From: Thermodesulfobacteriota bacterium
GTDB taxonomy: Bacteria > Desulfobacterota > Desulfobacteria > Desulfobacterales > Desulfosudaceae
Assembly: GCA_040753795.1 (NCBI GenBank)
Contig: JBFMDX010000020.1
Location: forward strand, 1 to 64,000
Direction of reading: 5' to 3'
Length of the DNA stretch: 64,000 nt
This document shows positions 32,250 to 42,718 of this stretch, piece after piece; within the stretch, counting starts at the first letter, position 1; each line of letters starts with the position of its first letter. The notes under the pieces were generated by a model. That model was not told the DNA's origin, did no database searches, and saw only the letters and a list, made by a program, of their open reading frames with translations. Made by a program: the position numbers and the translations under genes.

Positions 32250-34028
32250 ATGACAGCGGAAAAGGAAATGATGATGGAAACGGTAAAGACGGTTCACCCC
32301 AGAGGAATTCGCGCTCGCGTACTGCTCTCCAGCGTATTCGGGCCTTATGCTCAGGACGATGCCTTCGGCAGCCGCAAAATCAACCCCATGGAACTGTACC
32401 AGAACCAGGTCACCCGGGTGCAGGGGGCTTTTTCGTTGCGCATGTTTCATCGTTCTTTCGGGCTGATGATGATTCAGGCCAACCTCAAGGCGCCCTGTTA
32501 CCTGCTTGATTTTCCCTCCCTGGAACGGTTCACCGACGAGATCAGAAACAATACCTATGATATCGTCGGCATCAGCGGCATTGTGCCGAATATCGGCAAA
32601 GTGAAAAAGATGTGCGAACTGGTCCGGCAGTATCAGCCCCGGGCGGTGATCGTCGTGGGCGGCCACATCGCCGCGATGGAAGGGCTTGACAGCCGCATCG
32701 ACGCCGACCATATCGTCCGGGGGGACGGCATCCGCTGGTTCCGTGAGTTCCTCGGCCAGAATCCGGAAGAGCCGATTACGCATCCGGCCGTTCTTTCCGC
32801 CAACGGCACACGTATCGTCGGTCGCAACCTCAGGGAAAAGCCCGGTGACGTGGCCGCCATCCTCATCCCCTCGGTGGGCTGTCCGGTGGGCTGCAATTTC
32901 TGCTCGACCTCCGCTCTCTTCGGCGGCAAAGGCAACTTCATCAATTTCTACCAGACCGGACGGGAATTGTTCGATGTCATGTGCGGCCTGGAACGGCAAC
33001 TGAAGGTGCGCTCCTTTTTCGTCCTGGATGAAAACTTCCTGCTTCACAAAAAGAGATCCATGGAACTGATGGAGCTGATGAAACAACACAACAAGAGCTG
33101 GGTGCTGAGCGTTTTCAGTTCCGCCCGGGTCATCAAGTCCTACACCCTGGATGAATTGCTCGCTCTGGGCATCGGCTGGGTCTGGATGGGGCTGGAAGGA
33201 AAATCAAGCCAGTACCGCAAGCTCAACGACATCGACACCTTCGAGCTGGTCAATGAACTTCAGGCCAACGGCATCCGCGTTCTGGGCTCTTCCATCATCG
33301 GCCTTGAAAACCACACCCCGGAGAACCTGCCCGAGGCCATCGATTACGCGGTCAGCCACGACACGGTCTTCCACCAGTTCATGCTCTACACCCCGAATGC
33401 TGGGACCCCGCTTTATGAGGAACATCGGCAAAAGGGGACGCTTTACAACGAAACGGAATTCCCCCTGGCGGACGCCCACGGGCAGTATCGCTTCCGCTAC
33501 CGCCACCCGCATATTCAGAATGGTCAGGAAGAACAGTTCCTGCTCGATGCCTTTACCCGGGATTTTGAGGTAAACGGGCCCAGCCTGTTCCGCCTGATCC
33601 GGACCCTGCTCAGCGGCTGGCAGAAGCACAAAAACCATCCGGACTGGCGCATCCGGGACCGCTACAACTGGGAAGTCGATCCCCTGCGGTCGACTTATGC
33701 CGGGGCGGTCTGGGGCATGCGGAAATACTATGCCGCCCGCGACCGGGCCATGGCGGACAGAATGGACGCCCTGCTGGACGACATCTGCGCCGAATTCGGA
33801 TGGAAGACACGGTTGGCGGCCCGGGTAATCGGCGAAGTCGCCTACCGCTCCATCATAAAAGAAGAAAAGCGGCTGGCCCGGGGGTGGACCTACGAACCGC
33901 CCCAGTTTTTTGAAAAGAACGCCGCCGCTCTGGCCCTGGAACAACCCCGGACGGCAAAATCCGGGATCCGATTCCCGGACGATCTCCTGGAACCTGTAAC
34001 CGTTCCCGCCCCTGCCTTGAAAGGATAG
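32250..34028 (+). CDS. B12-binding-domain radical SAM protein
   Basis: 592 residues. The N-terminal cobalamin-binding-type Rossmann domain (about 60-190; DIVGISGIVPNIGKVKKM, VIVVGGHIA) lacks an obvious DxHxxG. The radical SAM core follows with CPVGCNFCST near residue 211, then WVWMGLEGKSSQY and the SSIIGLENHTPEN segment. About 200 C-terminal residues are unassigned. Class B methylases and ring-forming enzymes of hopanoid, chlorophyll and antibiotic pathways share this layout; the substrate here is unknown. The exact start is unclear: ATGs at 32250, 32268, 32271 and 32274 are all in frame. A fragment resembling its 3' end recurs near 56400. Confidence 0.82.
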   Translation: MTAEKEMMMETVKTVHPRGIRARVLLSSVFGPYAQDDAFGSRKINPMELYQNQVTRVQGAFSLRMFHRSFGLMMIQANLKAPCYLLDFPSLERFTDEIRNNTYDIVGISGIVPNIGKVKKMCELVRQYQPRAVIVVGGHIAAMEGLDSRIDADHIVRGDGIRWFREFLGQNPEEPITHPAVLSANGTRIVGRNLREKPGDVAAILIPSVGCPVGCNFCSTSALFGGKGNFINFYQTGRELFDVMCGLERQLKVRSFFVLDENFLLHKKRSMELMELMKQHNKSWVLSVFSSARVIKSYTLDELLALGIGWVWMGLEGKSSQYRKLNDIDTFELVNELQANGIRVLGSSIIGLENHTPENLPEAIDYAVSHDTVFHQFMLYTPNAGTPLYEEHRQKGTLYNETEFPLADAHGQYRFRYRHPHIQNGQEEQFLLDAFTRDFEVNGPSLFRLIRTLLSGWQKHKNHPDWRIRDRYNWEVDPLRSTYAGAVWGMRKYYAARDRAMADRMDALLDDICAEFGWKTRLAARVIGEVAYRSIIKEEKRLARGWTYEPPQFFEKNAAALALEQPRTAKSGIRFPDDLLEPVTVPAPALKG

Positions 34029-34105: not shown

Positions 34106-34438
34106 CTATCCCAGCAGCCGGTAAAGAATCAGTAGGGGAATCCATCCCGCCGCCAATCCGATCAGTACCCGCTTCCATTGATCCCCGAAATAGGACTGGG
34201 TGGTTTTGATAACCCAGTCGCGATGGATCCAGATGTGCACGCCAATCAGGACCAGAAAGATCAAAGCCAGGTGAAAGTGCATTTCCCCCCATTCGCGGCG
34301 ATGCCATCCGAGAAAAGTGCTTTCGCTTCCCGGTCCCCGTCCGATCACCAGATGCAGCAGAAGCCCCAGCACCGTCATGGCGCAGGCATCCACGAACATG
34401 GCGGCACTGACGGCGTAGCGCATGGTTTTCGTATCCAT
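34106..34438 (-). CDS. DUF4405-type small membrane protein (putative b-type cytochrome)
   Basis: 110 residues, three membrane helices. Histidines sit inside helices in the pattern of di-heme b cytochromes: LLLHLVIG in helix 1, and HFHLALIFLVLIGVHIWIH in helix 2 with three or four His in register, plus the loop LGWHRREWGE. This matches DUF4405 proteins, thought to be quinone- or gas-related membrane cytochromes. Redox function is inferred, not shown. It has an AGGAG-like ribosome site and stands alone. Confidence 0.72.
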   Translation of the reverse strand: MDTKTMRYAVSAAMFVDACAMTVLGLLLHLVIGRGPGSESTFLGWHRREWGEMHFHLALIFLVLIGVHIWIHRDWVIKTTQSYFGDQWKRVLIGLAAGWIPLLILYRLLG

Positions 34439-34642: not shown

Positions 34643-34733
34643 TTTATAAGTATCCTTTGGGTATACAAAAAAGCGGCGGGAGGCGGTATCCTGCCGGCAT
34701 TATCTGTTGGCTGCTGCGGAAAAAGCTGTGACC

Positions 34734-35435
34734 ATGGTGACATTGTCGGAAAAAAAGAAAATAGACGCCCCGACTCCGCGGGAACGACGGCGGGAAAAAT
34801 TCAGCCGGGCCATCCTGGGCGCAACGGAGGAAGCGTTCTTCGAACAGGGATACGAGGCCGCCACCCTGGAAGGCATTGCCCGGCGGGCCGGGGTGACCAA
34901 GCGGACACTGTACAAGTATTTCCCGTCCAAAAGCGCGCTGTTTGTCAGCATGTTCGACGAACACCTTCAGGCATTGAACGACCTTATCTCCGAGACGGCC
35001 GGCCTGGATGTTACCACCGACCGCAAACTGCTCATGCTGATCAGCAACCTCATCCAGTTTACCCGGGAAAATGAACATTTCATGCGGCAGTTCATGTCGA
35101 TCAACATCCGCCAGTTCGCCGGCAAGCTCCCCGGCGAACTGATCGAACGGGTGGACCAGCTCAATCAGTCCATGATCCGGCAGGCGACGGAAGTGGTCCG
35201 TCAGGGGCAGGCGGAAGGGGTCGTCATCGACACCGATCCGGAAACCCTGACGCACCTGGTGGTCGCCATCTGCCGGGGGATTTTCATGCACGCCGACGCG
35301 GAGAACGTTTTTTTTAAATCCGCGGACATCAACCCCGACAAACTGTTCAACGCTTTTTTCATGGTCATGATGAAAGACGTCATCAAGGTGCCGCGGAAAA
35401 AACTGACGCGACGGATCAATTCACTCAACCCATGA
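34734..35435 (+). CDS. TetR/AcrR-family regulator
   Basis: 233 residues from the ATG at 34734; an in-frame TTG at 34707 is also possible and neither has a good ribosome site. The helix-turn-helix is classical (AFFEQGYEAATLEGIARRAGVTKRTLYKYFPSKSALF), and the ligand domain includes the TetR_C-like HFMRQFMSINIRQFAGKLPG stretch. A 17-bp palindrome about 90 bases upstream is the likely operator. The next gene, an SDR oxidoreductase, starts 23 bases downstream, and the redox operon follows, so this protein is the best candidate for controlling both. Confidence 0.88.
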   Translation: MVTLSEKKKIDAPTPRERRREKFSRAILGATEEAFFEQGYEAATLEGIARRAGVTKRTLYKYFPSKSALFVSMFDEHLQALNDLISETAGLDVTTDRKLLMLISNLIQFTRENEHFMRQFMSINIRQFAGKLPGELIERVDQLNQSMIRQATEVVRQGQAEGVVIDTDPETLTHLVVAICRGIFMHADAENVFFKSADINPDKLFNAFFMVMMKDVIKVPRKKLTRRINSLNP

Positions 35436-35458
35436 AGCTTCAGCCTGGAGGGCCGAAC

Positions 35459-36307
35459 GTGAAACCCATGAGAAACTTCATTGACAAAAAAGTCGTCATC
35501 ACGGGCGCGGCCAGCGGCATCGGCCGGGCCCTGGCCGATCGCTTCGCCCGGGCCGGGGCCAAGGTGATCATGATGGACATCAACGGCCCGCTGCTGAAAA
35601 AAGCCTCAGACGAAATCGCCGAAGCCCATGGCCGGGAGGTGTTCAGCCTGACGGCGGATGTCACCGATTTTGACGCCTTTGGAACGGCCGTCCGCAAGGT
35701 CATCGATGAGCTCGGCTTTATCGACGTGTTCATCAACAACGCCGGCCTGGGCATATCCGGTGAGTTCGTCCGCAACACCAGGGCGGAAATCGACCGGATC
35801 ACCGCCGTCAATTATCTGGGCATGGTGTACGGCTCCCGCATCATCCTGGAGCATTTCTACCGGCAGGGGTACGGGCACCTGGTGAACGTCGCCTCCGTGG
35901 CCGGGCTGCAGGGGTTCCCCCGCATGTCCCTGTACTGCGGGACCAAATGCGGCATCGTCGGTTTCACCCAGGCCGTCCGGTTCGAGGCCGAACGGGCCGG
36001 CATCCATGTCAGCCTGGCCCTGCCCAGCACCACGGCCACCCCCCTGATCCTGGAAAAGATGGACCTGCCCGACGACGAGATCCCGGGCGTGCTCCTGGCC
36101 ATTCCGGTCTGCCGGGTGGAGACCGTGGCCGAGGCCATCTTCAACGGCATCAGCCGGCGGTGCTTCATGATTTTTCCGACCCTGACGGACCGGGGGACCC
36201 TGTTCATGCGGAGCTTCATGCCGGGGGTCTTCAACCTGTTCATCCGGCTGGTGGGCTTCCGTTCATTCCGGAGAAAACGCGAGCGGCTGATGCGGCAGCA
36301 GGGCTGA
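35459..36307 (+). CDS. Short-chain dehydrogenase/reductase
   Basis: About 282 residues from the GTG at 35459, chosen because GGAGGG is 6 bases upstream; an ATG at 35432 overlapping the tetR stop is the alternative. The cofactor loop TGAASGIGRA, the NAG motif (FINNAGLG), the catalytic Ser region VASVAG and YCGTK (YxxxK) are all present. NAD(P)-dependent oxidation or reduction of an alcohol or ketone; substrate unknown. The C-terminal 60 residues are basic and hydrophobic, perhaps membrane-associated. Co-transcription with tetR and with the downstream Rieske gene (51-base gap) is likely. Confidence 0.88.
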   Translation: MKPMRNFIDKKVVITGAASGIGRALADRFARAGAKVIMMDINGPLLKKASDEIAEAHGREVFSLTADVTDFDAFGTAVRKVIDELGFIDVFINNAGLGISGEFVRNTRAEIDRITAVNYLGMVYGSRIILEHFYRQGYGHLVNVASVAGLQGFPRMSLYCGTKCGIVGFTQAVRFEAERAGIHVSLALPSTTATPLILEKMDLPDDEIPGVLLAIPVCRVETVAEAIFNGISRRCFMIFPTLTDRGTLFMRSFMPGVFNLFIRLVGFRSFRRKRERLMRQQG

Positions 36308-36358: not shown

Positions 36359-36847
36359 ATGCAAAAGATCGATCCTGACCGGCGGGAATTTTTCGGCTGG
36401 TCCTTCAAAGTCCTGGGAGCGGTGGGCCTGATGGGCATCCTCTATCCCATCACCCGGTTCCTGGGCGGGGATATCGATGTCGAGTCCCACGCCGGCATCG
36501 AGCCGGCCCGCGGCGCCAACGCCCGCAAACCGCCCGTGGCCGGAGACGGCAATTCCGTGGAAATCGACGCCGGCACCGTTCCGGAAGGGGCCGGCATGAT
36601 CCTGACCATGGGGTCCGTGCCGGTCATTCTGGTGAGGAACGGCAACCGCTGGCGGGCCTTCAACGCCACCTGCACCCATCTCGGCTGTCTGGTGAAATGG
36701 GATCAGGCCGGTCAGCGTTTTGTCTGCCCCTGTCACGGCGGCTTATACAACAGCGACGGGAAAGTGACGGCCGGTCCGCCGCCGGCGGCGCTGGCCGAAC
36801 ACCGGGTGACCCTGGCCGGCAATACCATCCGTATCTCCCGGGCCTGA
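36359..36847 (+). CDS. Rieske [2Fe-2S] protein of a cytochrome bc-type complex
   Basis: 162 residues from the ATG at 36359 (GGGAGG upstream). An N-terminal Tat-like stretch ([20 protein letters not shown]) forms the membrane anchor. Cluster ligands are complete: Cys 105 and His 107 in CTHLGC, Cys 123 and His 126 in CPCHGG, and the disulfide cysteines 110 and 125 are there too. It accepts an electron from quinol and passes it to a cytochrome. It is followed after 19 bases by the cytochrome b gene, as in canonical Rieske/cyt b operons. Confidence 0.93.
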
Positions 36848-36866: not shown

Positions 36867-38060
36867 ATGAAGTTGAAACAGGACAGGAAACGAACGGGCC
36901 GGTCCCGGACGGTTAAGCCCCGGACCGCGCTTGAATATTTTTCCTTCAGCGGCACGGCGGCGGCGGTCCTGCTGGTCATGCAGGCCCTCACCGGAATGCT
37001 GCTCCTGTTTTACTACAAGCCCGACGCCAAGCTGGCCTTTGCCTCCCTGGAGGCCATCCGCAACGATCTGCCCTACGGCATGCTCTTCGCCAATCTTCAC
37101 GCGGTCGGCTCCAGGGCCATCCTCATCCTGGTGTTTATTCACCTGTTCCGCATCATGCTGACCAGCGCCCACCGGGGCCCTCGCAGGATGCAGTGGTATA
37201 CGGGTATCGGCCTGCTGGTCATCATGCTGCTGGCCGGATTTTCGGGCTACCTGCTGCCGTGGACCCAGCAGTCCTACTGGGCCTGCGTCATCGGCACGGA
37301 ATCCGTCCGGGTCATTCCCCTGATAGGTGACCTGCTGGTATCGGCCATGCGGGGCGGCAGCGCCGTGGCCGGGCCGACCCTGACCCGGTTCTTCGCCCTG
37401 CACGTATCCCTGCTGCCCCTGGTTATCCTGATCATGGTCTGGATCCATCTTCGCCTGGTCTGGCGCACGGGCGTCATCGCGCCGGCGGACACCTACGCCG
37501 TCATTGACCGCGGCCTGTGCATCTACTGCGGCGCCTGTGAAAAAGAATGTCCCTTCGCGGCCATCAGAATCGTTCCCATCCGCGGACGCAAAACGCCGGC
37601 CCTGAACACGGACAAATGCAACGCCTGCCGGCTGTGCCTGAAAAACTGCCCGGCCGGCGCCATTTACCTGCGGTCGGACATCCTCCCCTATCAGGTCGAA
37701 CCGGTTTTTCCGGACGCGGTTCTGCGTCGAATCGCCACGGTCATGGGCGTTCTCATCGCCGTGTTCATCTGGGCGTTTTTCATCTTCGGCTATGAGCATG
37801 TACCGGCCGACCCGTTGCTCACCCCGGACCGCATCAAGCCCGAATGGTATTTCATGGCGTCCTACCAGGTGCTCAAGATTCTACCCAATGAACTGCTGGG
37901 GCTGGGCTTTCTGGCGGCCGTTTTTCTGCTGACGGCGCTGCTGCCGAAGCTGGACCCGTCCGGGCCCCGGGAGATCACGGCGCGTCCGGTTTACGGGATC
38001 ATCGTCGGCGGGGGGATCCTGTCTTTCATTCTACTGACGGCCTGGGGGGTTATATCCTGA
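36867..38060 (+). CDS. b6-type cytochrome b with an internal two-[4Fe-4S] ferredoxin domain
   Basis: 397 residues. Heme-ligand pairs are His 78/His 92 (14 apart) and His 179/His 194 (15 apart); the 15-residue gap and SGYLLPWTQQSYWA are features of cytochrome b6. After helix D a ferredoxin module is inserted (about 212-270) with Cys 218, 221, 224, 228 and 251, 254, 257, 261. The subunit-IV-like part follows, with the quinol-site PEWY motif at 325-328 and three helices. So b6, a bacterial-type ferredoxin and subunit IV are one polypeptide. The insert would sit on the cytoplasmic side, positioned to exchange electrons with the low-potential heme. Ferredoxin-coupled quinone chemistry is an inference. 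Confidence 0.9.
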   Translation: MKLKQDRKRTGRSRTVKPRTALEYFSFSGTAAAVLLVMQALTGMLLLFYYKPDAKLAFASLEAIRNDLPYGMLFANLHAVGSRAILILVFIHLFRIMLTSAHRGPRRMQWYTGIGLLVIMLLAGFSGYLLPWTQQSYWACVIGTESVRVIPLIGDLLVSAMRGGSAVAGPTLTRFFALHVSLLPLVILIMVWIHLRLVWRTGVIAPADTYAVIDRGLCIYCGACEKECPFAAIRIVPIRGRKTPALNTDKCNACRLCLKNCPAGAIYLRSDILPYQVEPVFPDAVLRRIATVMGVLIAVFIWAFFIFGYEHVPADPLLTPDRIKPEWYFMASYQVLKILPNELLGLGFLAAVFLLTALLPKLDPSGPREITARPVYGIIVGGGILSFILLTAWGVIS

Positions 38061-38061
38061 C

Positions 38062-38862
38062 ATGGGACGGTATGGGTCGACGATAATACTGCTGTTGCTG
38101 ATCGCGGGGCCTGCCTGGCCGGCCGCGGACGATACCTTCCTGCTGAACGACCAGTGCGTCCAGTGCCACCTGACCGGCGAGCAGACCGGAAAGCCCAATT
38201 CCGTTCTGGCCTGGAAACAGAGCGCCCATTTCCGGCCGGACGCCGGCTGCACCGGCTGTCATGGCAGCGACCGGTTCGTCCGGCAGGATTTCCGTAAGGG
38301 CCACATCGGCCTGCCGGATCGGTCCCGGATCACGGAAATGTGCGGCGCCTGCCACCAGGAACAGCAGAAACAGTTCCTGGAGAAAATGAGTACCGCCGGC
38401 CCGGCCGTGTGCGCCGTAACCTGCACGGACTGCCATGGTTACCACCTGGTCCGGCCGTCGGACAGCAGCCTGATCAATTCCGTCACCTGCGGTCGGTGCC
38501 ATCCCGCCGACCGGGGCGAAGTCCTGGCCGCCGAACTCGCCCGCCTGGAGACCCGTTTGCGGACGCTGACCTCAACCATGGAAAATCACAAGGAGGGCCG
38601 GATTCCGGTGGATACGATCAGGCGACGGCTGGCCGGGGTGAAAACGGAGGTGTCCCGGACCCTGCACTCCCGGAAGTTTGACGAGGTGTTGAAGTACCTG
38701 CGGACGCAGGCCAGCGGCGATCTGGACGCCATCGAGAACCGGCTGTCCGATTTTTCCCCCCGCACCTGGCGCCTGGAAGGTGTTGTCGTCACGATGGCGC
38801 TGGTCCTGGCCTTTGTCCTGGTCTTGGCCTATTTGGCCGGCCTGAAGAGAAAAGAGCAGTGA
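38062..38862 (+). CDS. Membrane-anchored pentaheme cytochrome c
   Basis: 266 residues. A signal peptide (about 1-21) precedes five CxxCH motifs at 32-36, 63-67, 94-98, 121-125 and 143-147. A helical, probably coiled-coil stretch follows (about 150-235), and one C-terminal membrane helix (about 240-260) leaves a short Lys-rich cytoplasmic end. The arrangement suggests the periplasmic electron acceptor of the Rieske/cytochrome b pair. The start is two bases after the cytochrome b stop. It resembles NapC/NrfH-like or tetraheme acceptors in heme content only. Confidence 0.88.
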   Translation: MGRYGSTIILLLLIAGPAWPAADDTFLLNDQCVQCHLTGEQTGKPNSVLAWKQSAHFRPDAGCTGCHGSDRFVRQDFRKGHIGLPDRSRITEMCGACHQEQQKQFLEKMSTAGPAVCAVTCTDCHGYHLVRPSDSSLINSVTCGRCHPADRGEVLAAELARLETRLRTLTSTMENHKEGRIPVDTIRRRLAGVKTEVSRTLHSRKFDEVLKYLRTQASGDLDAIENRLSDFSPRTWRLEGVVVTMALVLAFVLVLAYLAGLKRKEQ

Positions 38863-38903: not shown

Positions 38904-39320
38904 ATGAACGAAGAAACCCGAATGACGGAACCCGGGCTGGAACGCCACGCCCCCCGCCCCGCAGAACGGTCGCAGCCCGAGGATACGGTGACGGCCGGGA
39001 AAAAGCATAGAACATCCCGGCTCGTCTACCTGGCCCTGATCATCGCCCTGGCCGCCCTGGTCCTGGCGATCCAGGCCCGGCGAGACAGCCAGAAGGATGT
39101 CATCGCGGCCCTGAACCAGACCCTGACCCGCGAGGTGCTGCCGGATCTGAAAAAGTCCCGGGACCGTATCCTGGTGGGGCACATTTACGACCTCAAGCGC
39201 CTGATGGTCACCCTGGAGGAGATCAGGGAGACCACCACCAACGAGGAGGTCAGGATGCGCGTCGATCAACTGCGCAACGACATCGAGGAACTGACGGTCA
39301 AGGTGTTCGTTCACGAATAA
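38904..39320 (+). CDS. Small single-helix membrane protein of the redox operon
   Basis: 138 residues. A polar N-terminus (1-37), one membrane helix (about 40-58, LVYLALIIALAALVLAI), then about 80 residues of heptad-like charged helix (DVIAALNQTLTREVLPDLKK ... NDIEELTVKVFVHE), likely coiled coil. No cofactor motif. AGGAG ribosome site, 41 bases after the cytochrome c gene. Possibly an assembly or scaffold subunit of the complex; the family is not recognised. Confidence 0.7.
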   Translation: MNEETRMTEPGLERHAPRPAERSQPEDTVTAGKKHRTSRLVYLALIIALAALVLAIQARRDSQKDVIAALNQTLTREVLPDLKKSRDRILVGHIYDLKRLMVTLEEIRETTTNEEVRMRVDQLRNDIEELTVKVFVHE

Positions 39321-39361
39321 TCCCGCCGGCGCGGATGACCGGCATGCTGGAGGCGAAAAAG

Positions 39362-41227
39362 ATGGAAGACAGAAAGCCCCATGACTCGAATTTCACACCC
39401 CGGATGAGCCGGCGGCGGTTTCTCCAGACCGGCCTGGCCGCCACGGCCCTGGGCGCGGTGAACCTGACCCTGCCCGGATGCGGCGGCGGCAACGTCTATC
39501 TGGACGATTACCCGAATGTGCCGGAAAACAAGGTCAGCCTGAAACCCAACGGCAAATCCGTGCTGATCCTCGGCGGCGGCTTCGGCGGTATGCACGCCGC
39601 CTGCGAACTGGTCGACCGGGGCTTCAAGGTCACGGTCATCGAAAAATCCAGCACCCTGGGCGGCAAACTGAAAAGCTGGCGGGACAAGACCTTCGGCGTT
39701 CCGCCGGTTGACGATCCCGAATGGAAAGGCTATCCCCGGGACCATGGCGCCCACGCCGTCTGGGGCTTTTACAACAACCTGCGGGAATTCATGTTCCGGC
39801 ATGATTACCAGCTGTGGAAGTTCCCCCGGGAATCGACCATGTACAATTTTCTCGACCGGGACGGCAGCCAGGTGGAAATGGGGCAACCGACCTCATGGCC
39901 CGGGCCCTTGGCCGACCTGGAACGGCTGCTGGACGTGTCCCGGGCATTCAGCGCCATGGCCGGAGAAAGGGTCACCCCCGGCCGGCACTTCATGGGCAAG
40001 ATCGGCGGATTTGATTTTTCCGACAAAAAACAGCGCCTCTACCTGGACAGCCTTTCCTTTCCGGAATGGGCGCGGCTGGTGGGCATCCCCGAACGGCTGA
40101 CCCGCCGGTTCTTCGGCCCCATCTCGGAAATGGCCCTCTTCGACCCCATCGAGAACACCTCCGCTCTCTATATCCTCATGCTGATGAGCCTGGCCTCGGG
40201 CCATCATTCGGACATGGCCATCGACATCTTCATGCACCCGCCCGGGGAAACCTACGTCAAGCCCATCGAGAACTATATCCGGTCCAGGGGCGGGGAGATC
40301 GTCTTCAACACGCCGGTGATGAAGATCAAGCATGAAAACGGCCGGGTGCTGGGCGTCCTGGCCGGAGAGGAAGCCCCCGCCGGCGGGGTCACCACCTGGC
40401 GGTGCAATGTCTGCGGTTCGGTCTTCAGTTCCCCCACCAAGCCCGGACGCTGCCCGGTCTGCGGCGCGCCGGCTTCGGAGATCATGCCGTTTTCCGGCGG
40501 GGGGACCCGGGAGTACGTGGCCGACTATTACGTGGTGGCCATGGACACCCCCGGCGCCAAGGCGGTGTCGCTGGCCTCCGGGCTGGGGGGCCAGCCCTAT
40601 TTTGATAACATGCAGAAGCTGGAGGCCACCAGCGTCTATCCGGTCAACCTCTGGTACGACAACTGCGATGTCTGGCAGAAGCGGTTCCCCGGCCACGCCG
40701 ACTTCTTCGCCTCGAGCTTCAAGCTGCTCGGCATCACCTTAAACTGGGCCATGGACGGCAAGGTCAACGGCAAGCACAACAACGACCCCCTGGTGCCGGA
40801 TTATCAGGGCAAGAACATCAACGTCATCGAAACCCAGATCGCCAACACCGACCTGGTCAGAAACCTCGACGACGACAAGATCGCGCGCCTGGTCCACGAG
40901 GAATTGAAGATCGCCCTGCCTGATCTGCCGCCGCCGACCGACTGGTACGTCAACCGCTGGGACACCTATTCCCCCCAGCGGGTGGGCTATGAAGCCCTGC
41001 GGCCACCGATCCAGTCCCCCCTGGACAATCTCTTTTTCATCGGCGACTGGGTCCGCACTGATCATGAAAGCGTCTACATGGAAAAGACCTGCGTCTCGGC
41101 CAAAATGGTCACCAACCTGATCCTGGAAAAGGCCGGTCAGAAAAAGGGACGGATCCGGATCCTGCGCAGCGGCACCCCCAACCGTATGATCAGCCTGATG
41201 CGGGCCGTGGAAAGTCCTTATCCGTAA
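39362..41227 (+). CDS. Tat-exported FAD oxidoreductase with rubredoxin-like insert
   Basis: 621 residues from the ATG at 39362 (GGAGGCG upstream). The twin-arginine signal MSRRRFLQTGLAATALG continues to a possible lipobox ending in Cys 40. The FAD-binding GGGFGGMHAACELVDRG (from about residue 71) and the C-terminal FIGDWVRTD are of the amine-oxidase/phytoene-desaturase type. A rubredoxin-like zinc or iron knuckle, WRCNVCGSVF ... GRCPVCGAP, is inserted near residues 345-370. It may exchange electrons between its substrate and the cytochrome c or Rieske protein at the membrane surface. Substrate unknown. Confidence 0.82.
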   Translation: MEDRKPHDSNFTPRMSRRRFLQTGLAATALGAVNLTLPGCGGGNVYLDDYPNVPENKVSLKPNGKSVLILGGGFGGMHAACELVDRGFKVTVIEKSSTLGGKLKSWRDKTFGVPPVDDPEWKGYPRDHGAHAVWGFYNNLREFMFRHDYQLWKFPRESTMYNFLDRDGSQVEMGQPTSWPGPLADLERLLDVSRAFSAMAGERVTPGRHFMGKIGGFDFSDKKQRLYLDSLSFPEWARLVGIPERLTRRFFGPISEMALFDPIENTSALYILMLMSLASGHHSDMAIDIFMHPPGETYVKPIENYIRSRGGEIVFNTPVMKIKHENGRVLGVLAGEEAPAGGVTTWRCNVCGSVFSSPTKPGRCPVCGAPASEIMPFSGGGTREYVADYYVVAMDTPGAKAVSLASGLGGQPYFDNMQKLEATSVYPVNLWYDNCDVWQKRFPGHADFFASSFKLLGITLNWAMDGKVNGKHNNDPLVPDYQGKNINVIETQIANTDLVRNLDDDKIARLVHEELKIALPDLPPPTDWYVNRWDTYSPQRVGYEALRPPIQSPLDNLFFIGDWVRTDHESVYMEKTCVSAKMVTNLILEKAGQKKGRIRILRSGTPNRMISLMRAVESPYP

Positions 41228-41245
41228 AAGGCAGGGAAGGGATTG

Positions 41246-42718
41246 ATGGCCGTAAATGAATCCAGGGACGCGACCCCGCCGGCGAAGGCCGGTCGGGCAA
41301 GGAACCGCGGGCCGGCCGTCCGCCTGCGCGACGCCGGCATTTCCCTGAAGTATCATTTTCTGACGCAGCACCACCTCCTCGGCGCCCTGTTCCGAAACGG
41401 CCCCATGTTCGTGGTGGACAACTATCGCCGCTATTCCTGGATGCGCGTCCTGCTGCGTAACGGCGGCAAGATGCTGGATATGATGACCCGGACCCGGACC
41501 GGCCGTTACCGGGAAGCCAACGCCATCCTGTCCACGGTGATGGCCGGAGGCTTTGTCCGGATGCTGGAAGGCCAGTACCACCGCCGCGACCGGCTGGTCC
41601 TTCACGAGGACATGCTGCCGCCGGAAATTTTCCGGGCCATGGACCTGGAGCCGTGGATGGCCGAGATGCTGGCGATCATGCTGCCGATCATGGAACCCGG
41701 CGCCATGGAAGCGTTCATTGATGTTTCCGAAAACAACGGCATTCCGCCGGATATCTGCAGCCTGCCCAAGGGGACCATGGGCATGGTGCTGGAAAACCAG
41801 CTCCCCCCGGTCAACGCGCTGGTGACGAGCAACCTGCCCTGCGACGGCGGCATGTCGTCCTACACCCTGATCGAAAAACAACTCAAGGTACCCACCTGCC
41901 GGGTGGACATTCCCTTTGATTTTCGCAGTGAACGGGCGATCCGTTATTTTATCGGTGAGCTCCGGCGCATGATCGCCTGGCTGGAGGCGCACACGCCCGG
42001 CCGCATGGACTGGGACCGCCTGCGAAACATCATCGAGGAGCGCAACCGCATGCTGGCCCTGGAGCAGGAGCTGTGGGACATGATGCGGATCTCCCCGGCG
42101 CCCATGGCCGCCGAGCCGGTTTACCTGTCTCATCTCTGGGGATTTAACATGAGCCCCGGTACGCCGGAGGCCACGGACCTTTTCCGGCAGGTGGCCGGGC
42201 TCTGCCGCCGGAATGTGGAAGAGGGAATCGGCGCCCTGCCGGAGGAACGATACCGGGTGCTGCTGTGGAACCCGCCCATGGCCCATTTCGGCGAGTTTTT
42301 TGTCTGGGCCGAGCAGGCCTACGGTGTTTCCCTGATCATGGACAGCATGTCGTTCAACCGCCAGCCGCCTATAGATACCTCCACGGAGGAGTCCATGCTG
42401 CGGGGCCTGGCCTATAACATAATGGACGGTCCCATGGCCCGCCACACCCGGGGGCCGTGCAGCAATTTCATGGACGACATCTTCCACATCTGCCGGGTGT
42501 TTTCCATCGACATGATCTGGGTGGCCGGCCACATCGGCTGCAAAAACACCCAGGCCTTAAACGGCATGCTCCGGGAGCTGTGCCGGCAGGCCAACATTCC
42601 GCTGCTGATCATCAACTACGACCTGATGGATCCGCGCATCGTCACCCACGACGGGATCAAGGAGCAGGTGAACCATTTCATGGAGACCGTCATGAAGGCG
42701 GAGCGGCTGGCCCCCTGA
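41246..42718 (+). CDS. 2-hydroxyacyl-CoA dehydratase / benzoyl-CoA reductase family (HgdB/BcrC-like) subunit
   Basis: 490 residues. Soluble. The layout is of the HGD-D family: an N-terminal domain with the NALVTSNLPCDGG cysteine region (about 191-203), then RVLLWNPPMAH and a C-terminal domain with VAGHIGCKNTQA and IPLLIINYDLMDPR...IKEQVNHFMET, which holds the [4Fe-4S] cysteines in known members. These enzymes dehydrate 2-hydroxyacyl-CoA or reduce aromatic rings with an ATP-driven electron activator; no activator gene is beside it. It is 18 bases after the FAD gene, so operon membership is likely. Its last 264 coding bases and 39 bases beyond are duplicated at 54486. Confidence 0.8.
   Translation: MAVNESRDATPPAKAGRARNRGPAVRLRDAGISLKYHFLTQHHLLGALFRNGPMFVVDNYRRYSWMRVLLRNGGKMLDMMTRTRTGRYREANAILSTVMAGGFVRMLEGQYHRRDRLVLHEDMLPPEIFRAMDLEPWMAEMLAIMLPIMEPGAMEAFIDVSENNGIPPDICSLPKGTMGMVLENQLPPVNALVTSNLPCDGGMSSYTLIEKQLKVPTCRVDIPFDFRSERAIRYFIGELRRMIAWLEAHTPGRMDWDRLRNIIEERNRMLALEQELWDMMRISPAPMAAEPVYLSHLWGFNMSPGTPEATDLFRQVAGLCRRNVEEGIGALPEERYRVLLWNPPMAHFGEFFVWAEQAYGVSLIMDSMSFNRQPPIDTSTEESMLRGLAYNIMDGPMARHTRGPCSNFMDDIFHICRVFSIDMIWVAGHIGCKNTQALNGMLRELCRQANIPLLIINYDLMDPRIVTHDGIKEQVNHFMETVMKAERLAP

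Follow-up and report, generated by a model that had tools for sequence, protein, structure and literature searches.

A Rieske/cytochrome b operon of Desulfobacterota encodes a cytochrome b6-subunit IV fusion with an inserted 2[4Fe-4S] ferredoxin that may stand in for quinone at the n-side heme

We analyzed a window of 64,000 nucleotides (positions 1 to 64,000, forward strand, of contig JBFMDX010000020.1, assembly GCA_040753795.1) from a Thermodesulfobacteriota bacterium of the family Desulfosudaceae. As presented in Table 1, the window carries a Rieske protein gene, followed by a gene that fuses cytochrome b6 to subunit IV with a ferredoxin domain between them (hereafter b6-Fd-IV), a pentaheme cytochrome c gene, a gene for a small membrane protein and an FAD oxidoreductase gene. 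When the genes of the window were searched with tblastn, this five-gene order recurred wherever contigs allowed. The CTHLGC and CPCHGG motifs that characterize the Rieske protein of bc complexes were found in the window and in six other operons. The original prediction had considered the complex to be completed by the Rieske and pentaheme proteins; both partners were supported, and two more conserved genes (38904-39320 and 39335-41227) have to be added to them. Upstream of the operon, we also observed a gene for a small DUF4405 membrane protein on the minus strand (34106-34438), possibly binding b-type heme, and a gene for a B12-binding radical SAM protein (32250-34028).

Table 1. Genes of the Rieske/b6-Fd-IV locus and domains of the fused chain (positions in the window).
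Feature	Position	Strand	Remarks
TetR-type regulator	34707..35435	+	overlaps the SDR gene; possible regulator
Short-chain dehydrogenase (SDR)	35432..36307	+	upstream of Rieske; G209 has a homolog at this place; tentative member
Rieske [2Fe-2S] protein	36359..36847	+	RR signal-anchor, CTHLGC...CPCHGG; upstream start 36311 also open
b6-Fd-IV ORF	36867-38060	+	397 aa, translated ORF
Cytochrome b6 domain, aa 1-205	36867..37481	+	H78/H179 = bP, p side; H92/H194 = bN, n side; W199 at n-side quinone site; without heme-cn Cys
Inserted 2[4Fe-4S] ferredoxin domain, aa 206-272	37482..37682	+	n-side D-E loop
Subunit IV domain, aa 275-397	37689..38057	+	helices E-G; PEWY 325-328 (Qp site); R288 replaces n-side quinone-site Asp/Glu
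Pentaheme cytochrome c	38062..38862	+	five CxxCH, N-terminal signal, C-terminal membrane anchor
Small single-span membrane protein	38904..39320	+	no family; conserved in operon
FAD oxidoreductase, predicted Tat-exported	39335..41227	+	amine oxidase / phytoene desaturase-like; rubredoxin-like CxxC...CxxC insert; LPGC lipobox-like site
HGD-D family protein	41243..42718	+	2-hydroxyacyl-CoA dehydratase / benzoyl-CoA reductase-like subunit; 15 bp after FAD gene; tentative member

Pfam profiles matched the three parts of the fused chain above their cut-offs: Cytochrome_B at residues 23-200 (E 4e-44), Fer4 / 4Fe-4S dicluster (Fer4_21) at residues 211-266 (E 5e-10) and Cytochrom_B_C at residues 313-395 (E 3e-17). 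The heme-ligand spacings are of the b6 type, with 14 residues from H78 to H92 and 15 from H179 to H194. The insert contains Cys 218, 221, 224 and 228 and Cys 251, 254, 257 and 261, which form the two CxxCxxCxxxC motifs of a bacterial 2[4Fe-4S] ferredoxin. The b6 spacing, the PEWY motif and the eight Cys, which had been predicted to lie on one chain, are all present in the ORF. The complex departs from features that define b6f: b6 and subunit IV are encoded by a single ORF instead of separate chains, and the operon has the pentaheme cytochrome c in the place of cytochrome f.

A protein search returned one full-length relative of b6-Fd-IV among the 40 nearest genomes and, in total, seven insert-bearing proteins among the 389 genomes of the order, the genome of the window counted; no further one was found in 395 genomes drawn from the phylum. 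Several of the seven genomes are fragmented MAGs. Most of the remaining b6-IV chain matches were fusions without the insert, and the distance from the second helix-D His to the PxW motif was 134-136 residues with the insert versus 70-88 in insert-free b6-IV fusions. When 84,980 species genomes were scanned, only two of the best 80 loci had the insert, both on MAG contigs matching genomes of the order that had already been found. The six other b6-Fd-IV proteins were 47-52% identical to the window protein. All eight Cys, the four heme His and the Trp and Tyr of the Qp motif were invariant across the seven proteins; the four His, on helices B and D, were also invariant in 73 insert-free relatives, and the motif reads PEWY in the window protein and PDWY in the other six. 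Mean pairwise identity among the seven was 45% in the ferredoxin region and 55% in the membrane parts. Since the ferredoxin region has diverged to this extent with all Cys kept, it is selection that holds the Cys. A fusion due to chance or sequencing error is ruled out by the seven genomes with all Cys retained. As a separate observation, Cys140 (window 37284-37286), in the cd region near Qp (QQS[FY]WAC), is invariant in all seven proteins and is Thr in nearly all other b6-IV fusions.

In a tree computed with the insert columns removed, the seven b6-Fd-IV proteins formed one clade on a long stem (SH-aLRT 100), within a group of 17 that also comprised ten insert-free b6-IV fusions, of which nine belong to the same phylum and the tenth to Nitrospirota. 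The original prediction had made itself dependent on conservation of the insert and was not refuted on this count, the insert being kept in this one seven-genome clade, though absent from the wider family. A single gain of the ferredoxin is the simplest reading of this history. The sister clade of insert-free fusions of the same phylum (L051-L072) likewise has b6 and subunit IV on one chain, the PEWY motif, the 14/15 spacing and no heme-cn Cys; in contrast, these proteins have no ferredoxin and a short D-E loop, and they keep Asp or Glu at the n-side quinone position.

The structure was analyzed on an AlphaFold2 model built from an alignment of 86 sequences (A2), an earlier model from 7 sequences having reached a pLDDT of 59.6. 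The model had a mean pLDDT of 93.4 and a pTM of 0.90, with the ferredoxin blocks at about 92-96. The chain has a cytochrome b fold: it matched bc-type cytochrome b chains, bc1 b chains included, with a Z of 36 over about 330 of the 397 residues. The closest structure by rmsd was 6kls_B (2.4 A over 337 of the 397 residues), and some 60 residues fell outside the cytochrome b match, as expected for the insert. The pTM of 0.90, with the ferredoxin making up about one sixth of the chain, suggests that the placement of the ferredoxin is also fairly well predicted.

Cytochromes b of the bc family have their N-terminus and D-E loop on the n side. The N-terminus of b6-Fd-IV has 9 Lys and Arg in 20 residues, and the charges of the loops agree with n-side placement. 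The b-type topology places the insert, which falls between helices D and E, on the cytoplasmic (n) side. It occupies the place where b6 normally ends, as the original prediction had it, and since it begins about 10 residues after the bN ligand H194, the nearest heme is bN. Usually bN is the higher-potential heme and bP the low-potential one. The proposal that the low-potential heme exchanges electrons with the ferredoxin was therefore kept in part: a link between a b heme and the ferredoxin is still the most economical reading, but the low-potential bP is on the far p side and the contact would be with bN.

The n-side quinone site differs in the proteins that carry the ferredoxin. In bc1, His202 and Asp229 (yeast numbering) hold the Qi quinone through hydrogen bonds (PMC9162462). 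Neither residue is found in the ferredoxin clade, where W199 and R288 are invariant instead; His202 and Asp229 do not strictly define the family, the His position being variable in insert-free relatives too. W199 aligns with H202 of chicken bc1 (phmmer), and this position is Trp in 7/7 b6-Fd-IV proteins and Gln, Arg or Lys in 69 of the 73 insert-free relatives. Position 288 is Arg in 7/7 and Asp or Glu in 69/73 relatives, whose acid is aligned by the A2 family profile with the conserved K-D/K-E of bc1 chains. The register of R288 was taken from the multiple alignment, anchored on P-x-FP-xxx-LR, and pairwise phmmer to chicken bc1 shifts this stretch by 5 residues; the assignment of R288 is thus slightly less sure than that of W199. 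The Arg207-type position is also replaced in the ferredoxin clade, and the helix-A Cys associated with heme cn in b6f was absent at the aligned position in 7/7 proteins and in the sister fusions. The Qp motif and all four heme ligands are intact in the clade. Taken together, these alignments suggest that the gain of the ferredoxin was accompanied by a loss or remodelling of n-side quinone chemistry. Because the n-side quinone residues are replaced in exactly the ferredoxin clade, the ferredoxin may substitute for quinone there. A remodelled n-side site might still accept quinone, and W199 and R288 might be mere packing contacts with the ferredoxin.

Of the 389 genomes of the order, the FAD oxidoreductase was detected in the seven that have b6-Fd-IV and in no other, and its gene is adjacent where contigs are intact; no further genome had it in a 345-genome sample of the phylum. 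Full-length copies are 63-66% identical. The protein has a twin-arginine signal and the conserved rubredoxin-like CxxC...CxxC insert, with an LPGC-type site in several members. This signal and this site lead us to expect the enzyme on the p side. In the genomes searched, the FAD protein with a rubredoxin-like module (window 39335-41227; L021, L159, L160, L163, L168) was observed only with the complex. Among the conserved operon genes there was none for an NAD(P) oxidoreductase, and no cytoplasmic Fe-S or flavin partner was conserved in all operons. The HGD-D gene adjoins the FAD gene only in the window genome and in G179. HGD-D relatives were present in 7/7 b6-Fd-IV genomes versus 23/382 others (Fisher p 8e-9, relatedness not corrected for); elsewhere, the neighbours of such genes are a second HGD-like subunit and, judging by its DVGST motif, a putative ATPase activator. 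The HGD-D protein of the window has four conserved Cys and stands alone beside the complex.

We detected dsrA above cut-off, with a dsrB-like neighbour, in 5/7 b6-Fd-IV genomes, and an RnfD-family membrane protein in 7/7. COX1 was found in none of the seven, while the control search gave matches. These gene contents point to sulfate reducers without cytochrome c oxidase as hosts; two named MAGs are labelled Deltaproteobacteria. An aerobic use of the complex via cytochrome c oxidase was rejected on the absence of COX1, and a loss of Rnf as the reason for an extra ferredoxin outlet was rejected on the RnfD-family matches. Carotenoid or hopanoid synthesis was likewise rejected as the role of the FAD enzyme, as squalene/phytoene synthase was found in none of the seven genomes.

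We propose, with about an even chance of being right, a Rieske/cytochrome b core in which the 2[4Fe-4S] ferredoxin of the D-E loop replaces quinone as the redox partner of bN, with Qp chemistry kept and the ferredoxin-oxidising direction the likelier one. Quinol/quinone chemistry would stay at the periplasmic-side Qp, the meeting point of two branches. One branch would run from Qp through the Rieske protein and the pentaheme cytochrome c to the Tat-exported FAD oxidoreductase, and the other from Qp through bP, bN and the ferredoxin domain to a cytoplasmic partner. Reduced ferredoxin and the periplasmic flavoenzyme could both deliver electrons to Qp, where these would meet and reduce menaquinone, in a confurcation; in another option, the electrons of ferredoxin would be pulled through to the periplasmic flavoenzyme. 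The electron route, the loss of Qn turnover, the direction and the identities of the partners are what we infer from the data above.

Concerning the direction, menaquinol can reduce ferredoxin only with a strongly oxidising acceptor on the p side and against the membrane potential; oxidation of ferredoxin is downhill, with electrons moving with the field. We lean to oxidation because it is downhill with the field and no strongly oxidising p-side acceptor is evident: given the lack of COX1 and the dsrA genes, these hosts have no evident acceptor of a potential high enough to drive the reduction of ferredoxin. As each genome has an RnfD-family protein, the need for a second ferredoxin outlet is not obvious. 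The direction is a guess and would depend on the substrate and the potential of the FAD enzyme. In a more specific form, which we hold tentatively and consider somewhat short of an even chance, the n-side site is lost, the built-in ferredoxin is the low-potential terminal and Qp is the sole branching point, which would make the complex a bifurcating or confurcating ferredoxin:menaquinone:periplasmic-flavoenzyme machine with no Q-cycle.

The same anatomy would also serve a forward quinol bifurcation, in which menaquinol oxidized at Qp sends one electron to the Rieske protein, the pentaheme cytochrome and the FAD enzyme and the other, through bP, bN and the ferredoxin domain, to soluble ferredoxin or a cytoplasmic low-potential enzyme such as HGD-D. 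Such a scheme has been proposed before for Kuenenia, whose Rieske/cytochrome b complexes have Fe-S/NAD(P) reductases on the n side (PMC12954380), and the enrichment of HGD-D relatives, adjacent in two genomes, is in its favour. However, this enrichment is confounded by shared ancestry and the adjacency holds in only 2/7, a strongly oxidising p-side acceptor is required but COX1 was found in none of the seven, and electrons would run against the membrane potential; we regard forward bifurcation as unlikely. Electrons might instead be relayed to or from a specific cytoplasmic partner, a dehydrogenase or an HGD-D reductase, with clusters at ordinary potential and no ferredoxin pool involved. HGD-D and the SDR are each adjacent in two genomes, but no cytoplasmic Fe-S or flavin partner is common to all operons, which makes this relay quite improbable.

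Alternatively, the insert could be a permanent docking or entry module that feeds a still-working n-side quinone site, in a ferredoxin-fed Q cycle comparable to b6f cyclic flow. It does lie where Fd-FNR docking and heme cn entry have been proposed for b6f, on the cytoplasmic face close to the C-terminus of b6 (PMC9342900). Nevertheless, the ferredoxin clade has other residues in place of the heme-cn Cys and at the Arg207- and Asp229-type positions, so that the n-side site looks lost and not reinforced, and we consider a ferredoxin-fed Q cycle improbable, though less so than the relay to a specific partner. Conservation of Cys alone is no proof of electron transfer to a heme, and the ferredoxin could have a structural or regulatory role without electron exchange with bN; this seems very improbable, as both clusters stay complete at a mean identity of 45% and go together with changes at the bN quinone site.

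In Mitchell's Q cycle, the low-potential electrons have to go back to quinone on the n side. If the ferredoxin does take the place of the n-side site, the quinol-splitting step can couple directly to the ferredoxin pool. The nearest precedent is found in the anammox complexes, which are also of Rieske/b6 type with multiheme cytochrome c and n-side Fe-S clusters, and for which quinol-based bifurcation was proposed for NAD(P)H generation, with Rieske potentials above +300 mV and nitrite (PMC12954380). In anammox, the Fe-S clusters belong to separate NAD(P) reductase subunits and heme cn was modelled, whereas b6-Fd-IV has the clusters within the cytochrome b chain, no conserved NAD(P) reductase gene and no heme-cn Cys. 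In cyclic electron flow through b6f, ferredoxin electrons were proposed to enter on the n side near the b6 C-terminus (PMC9342900); there, a plant-type [2Fe-2S] ferredoxin docks transiently, heme cn and quinone are present at Qn, b6 and subunit IV are separate and cytochrome f is the partner. The Rnf complex likewise offers a membrane route for ferredoxin electrons, but its proteins are unrelated and its acceptor is NAD. In the literature searched (open-access, most subscription papers lying outside), we did not find a ferredoxin-containing cytochrome b with replaced n-side quinone residues. N-side Fe-S partners (anammox) and n-side ferredoxin entry (b6f) are already known, both as proposals; a ferredoxin inside the cytochrome b chain appears to be new and suggests that a small group of sulfate reducers links ferredoxin to the quinone pool in a way so far undescribed. 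Since clusters and b hemes lie on one chain, their electron exchange is testable on a single purified protein.

The genome of the window also encodes a second, unfused b6-type cytochrome (G000:C3:230273-230857, L022), which keeps the helix-A Cys (CLGG). It lies near genes for a multiheme cytochrome c and an Fe-S protein, and a similar locus (L023) was observed in G015.
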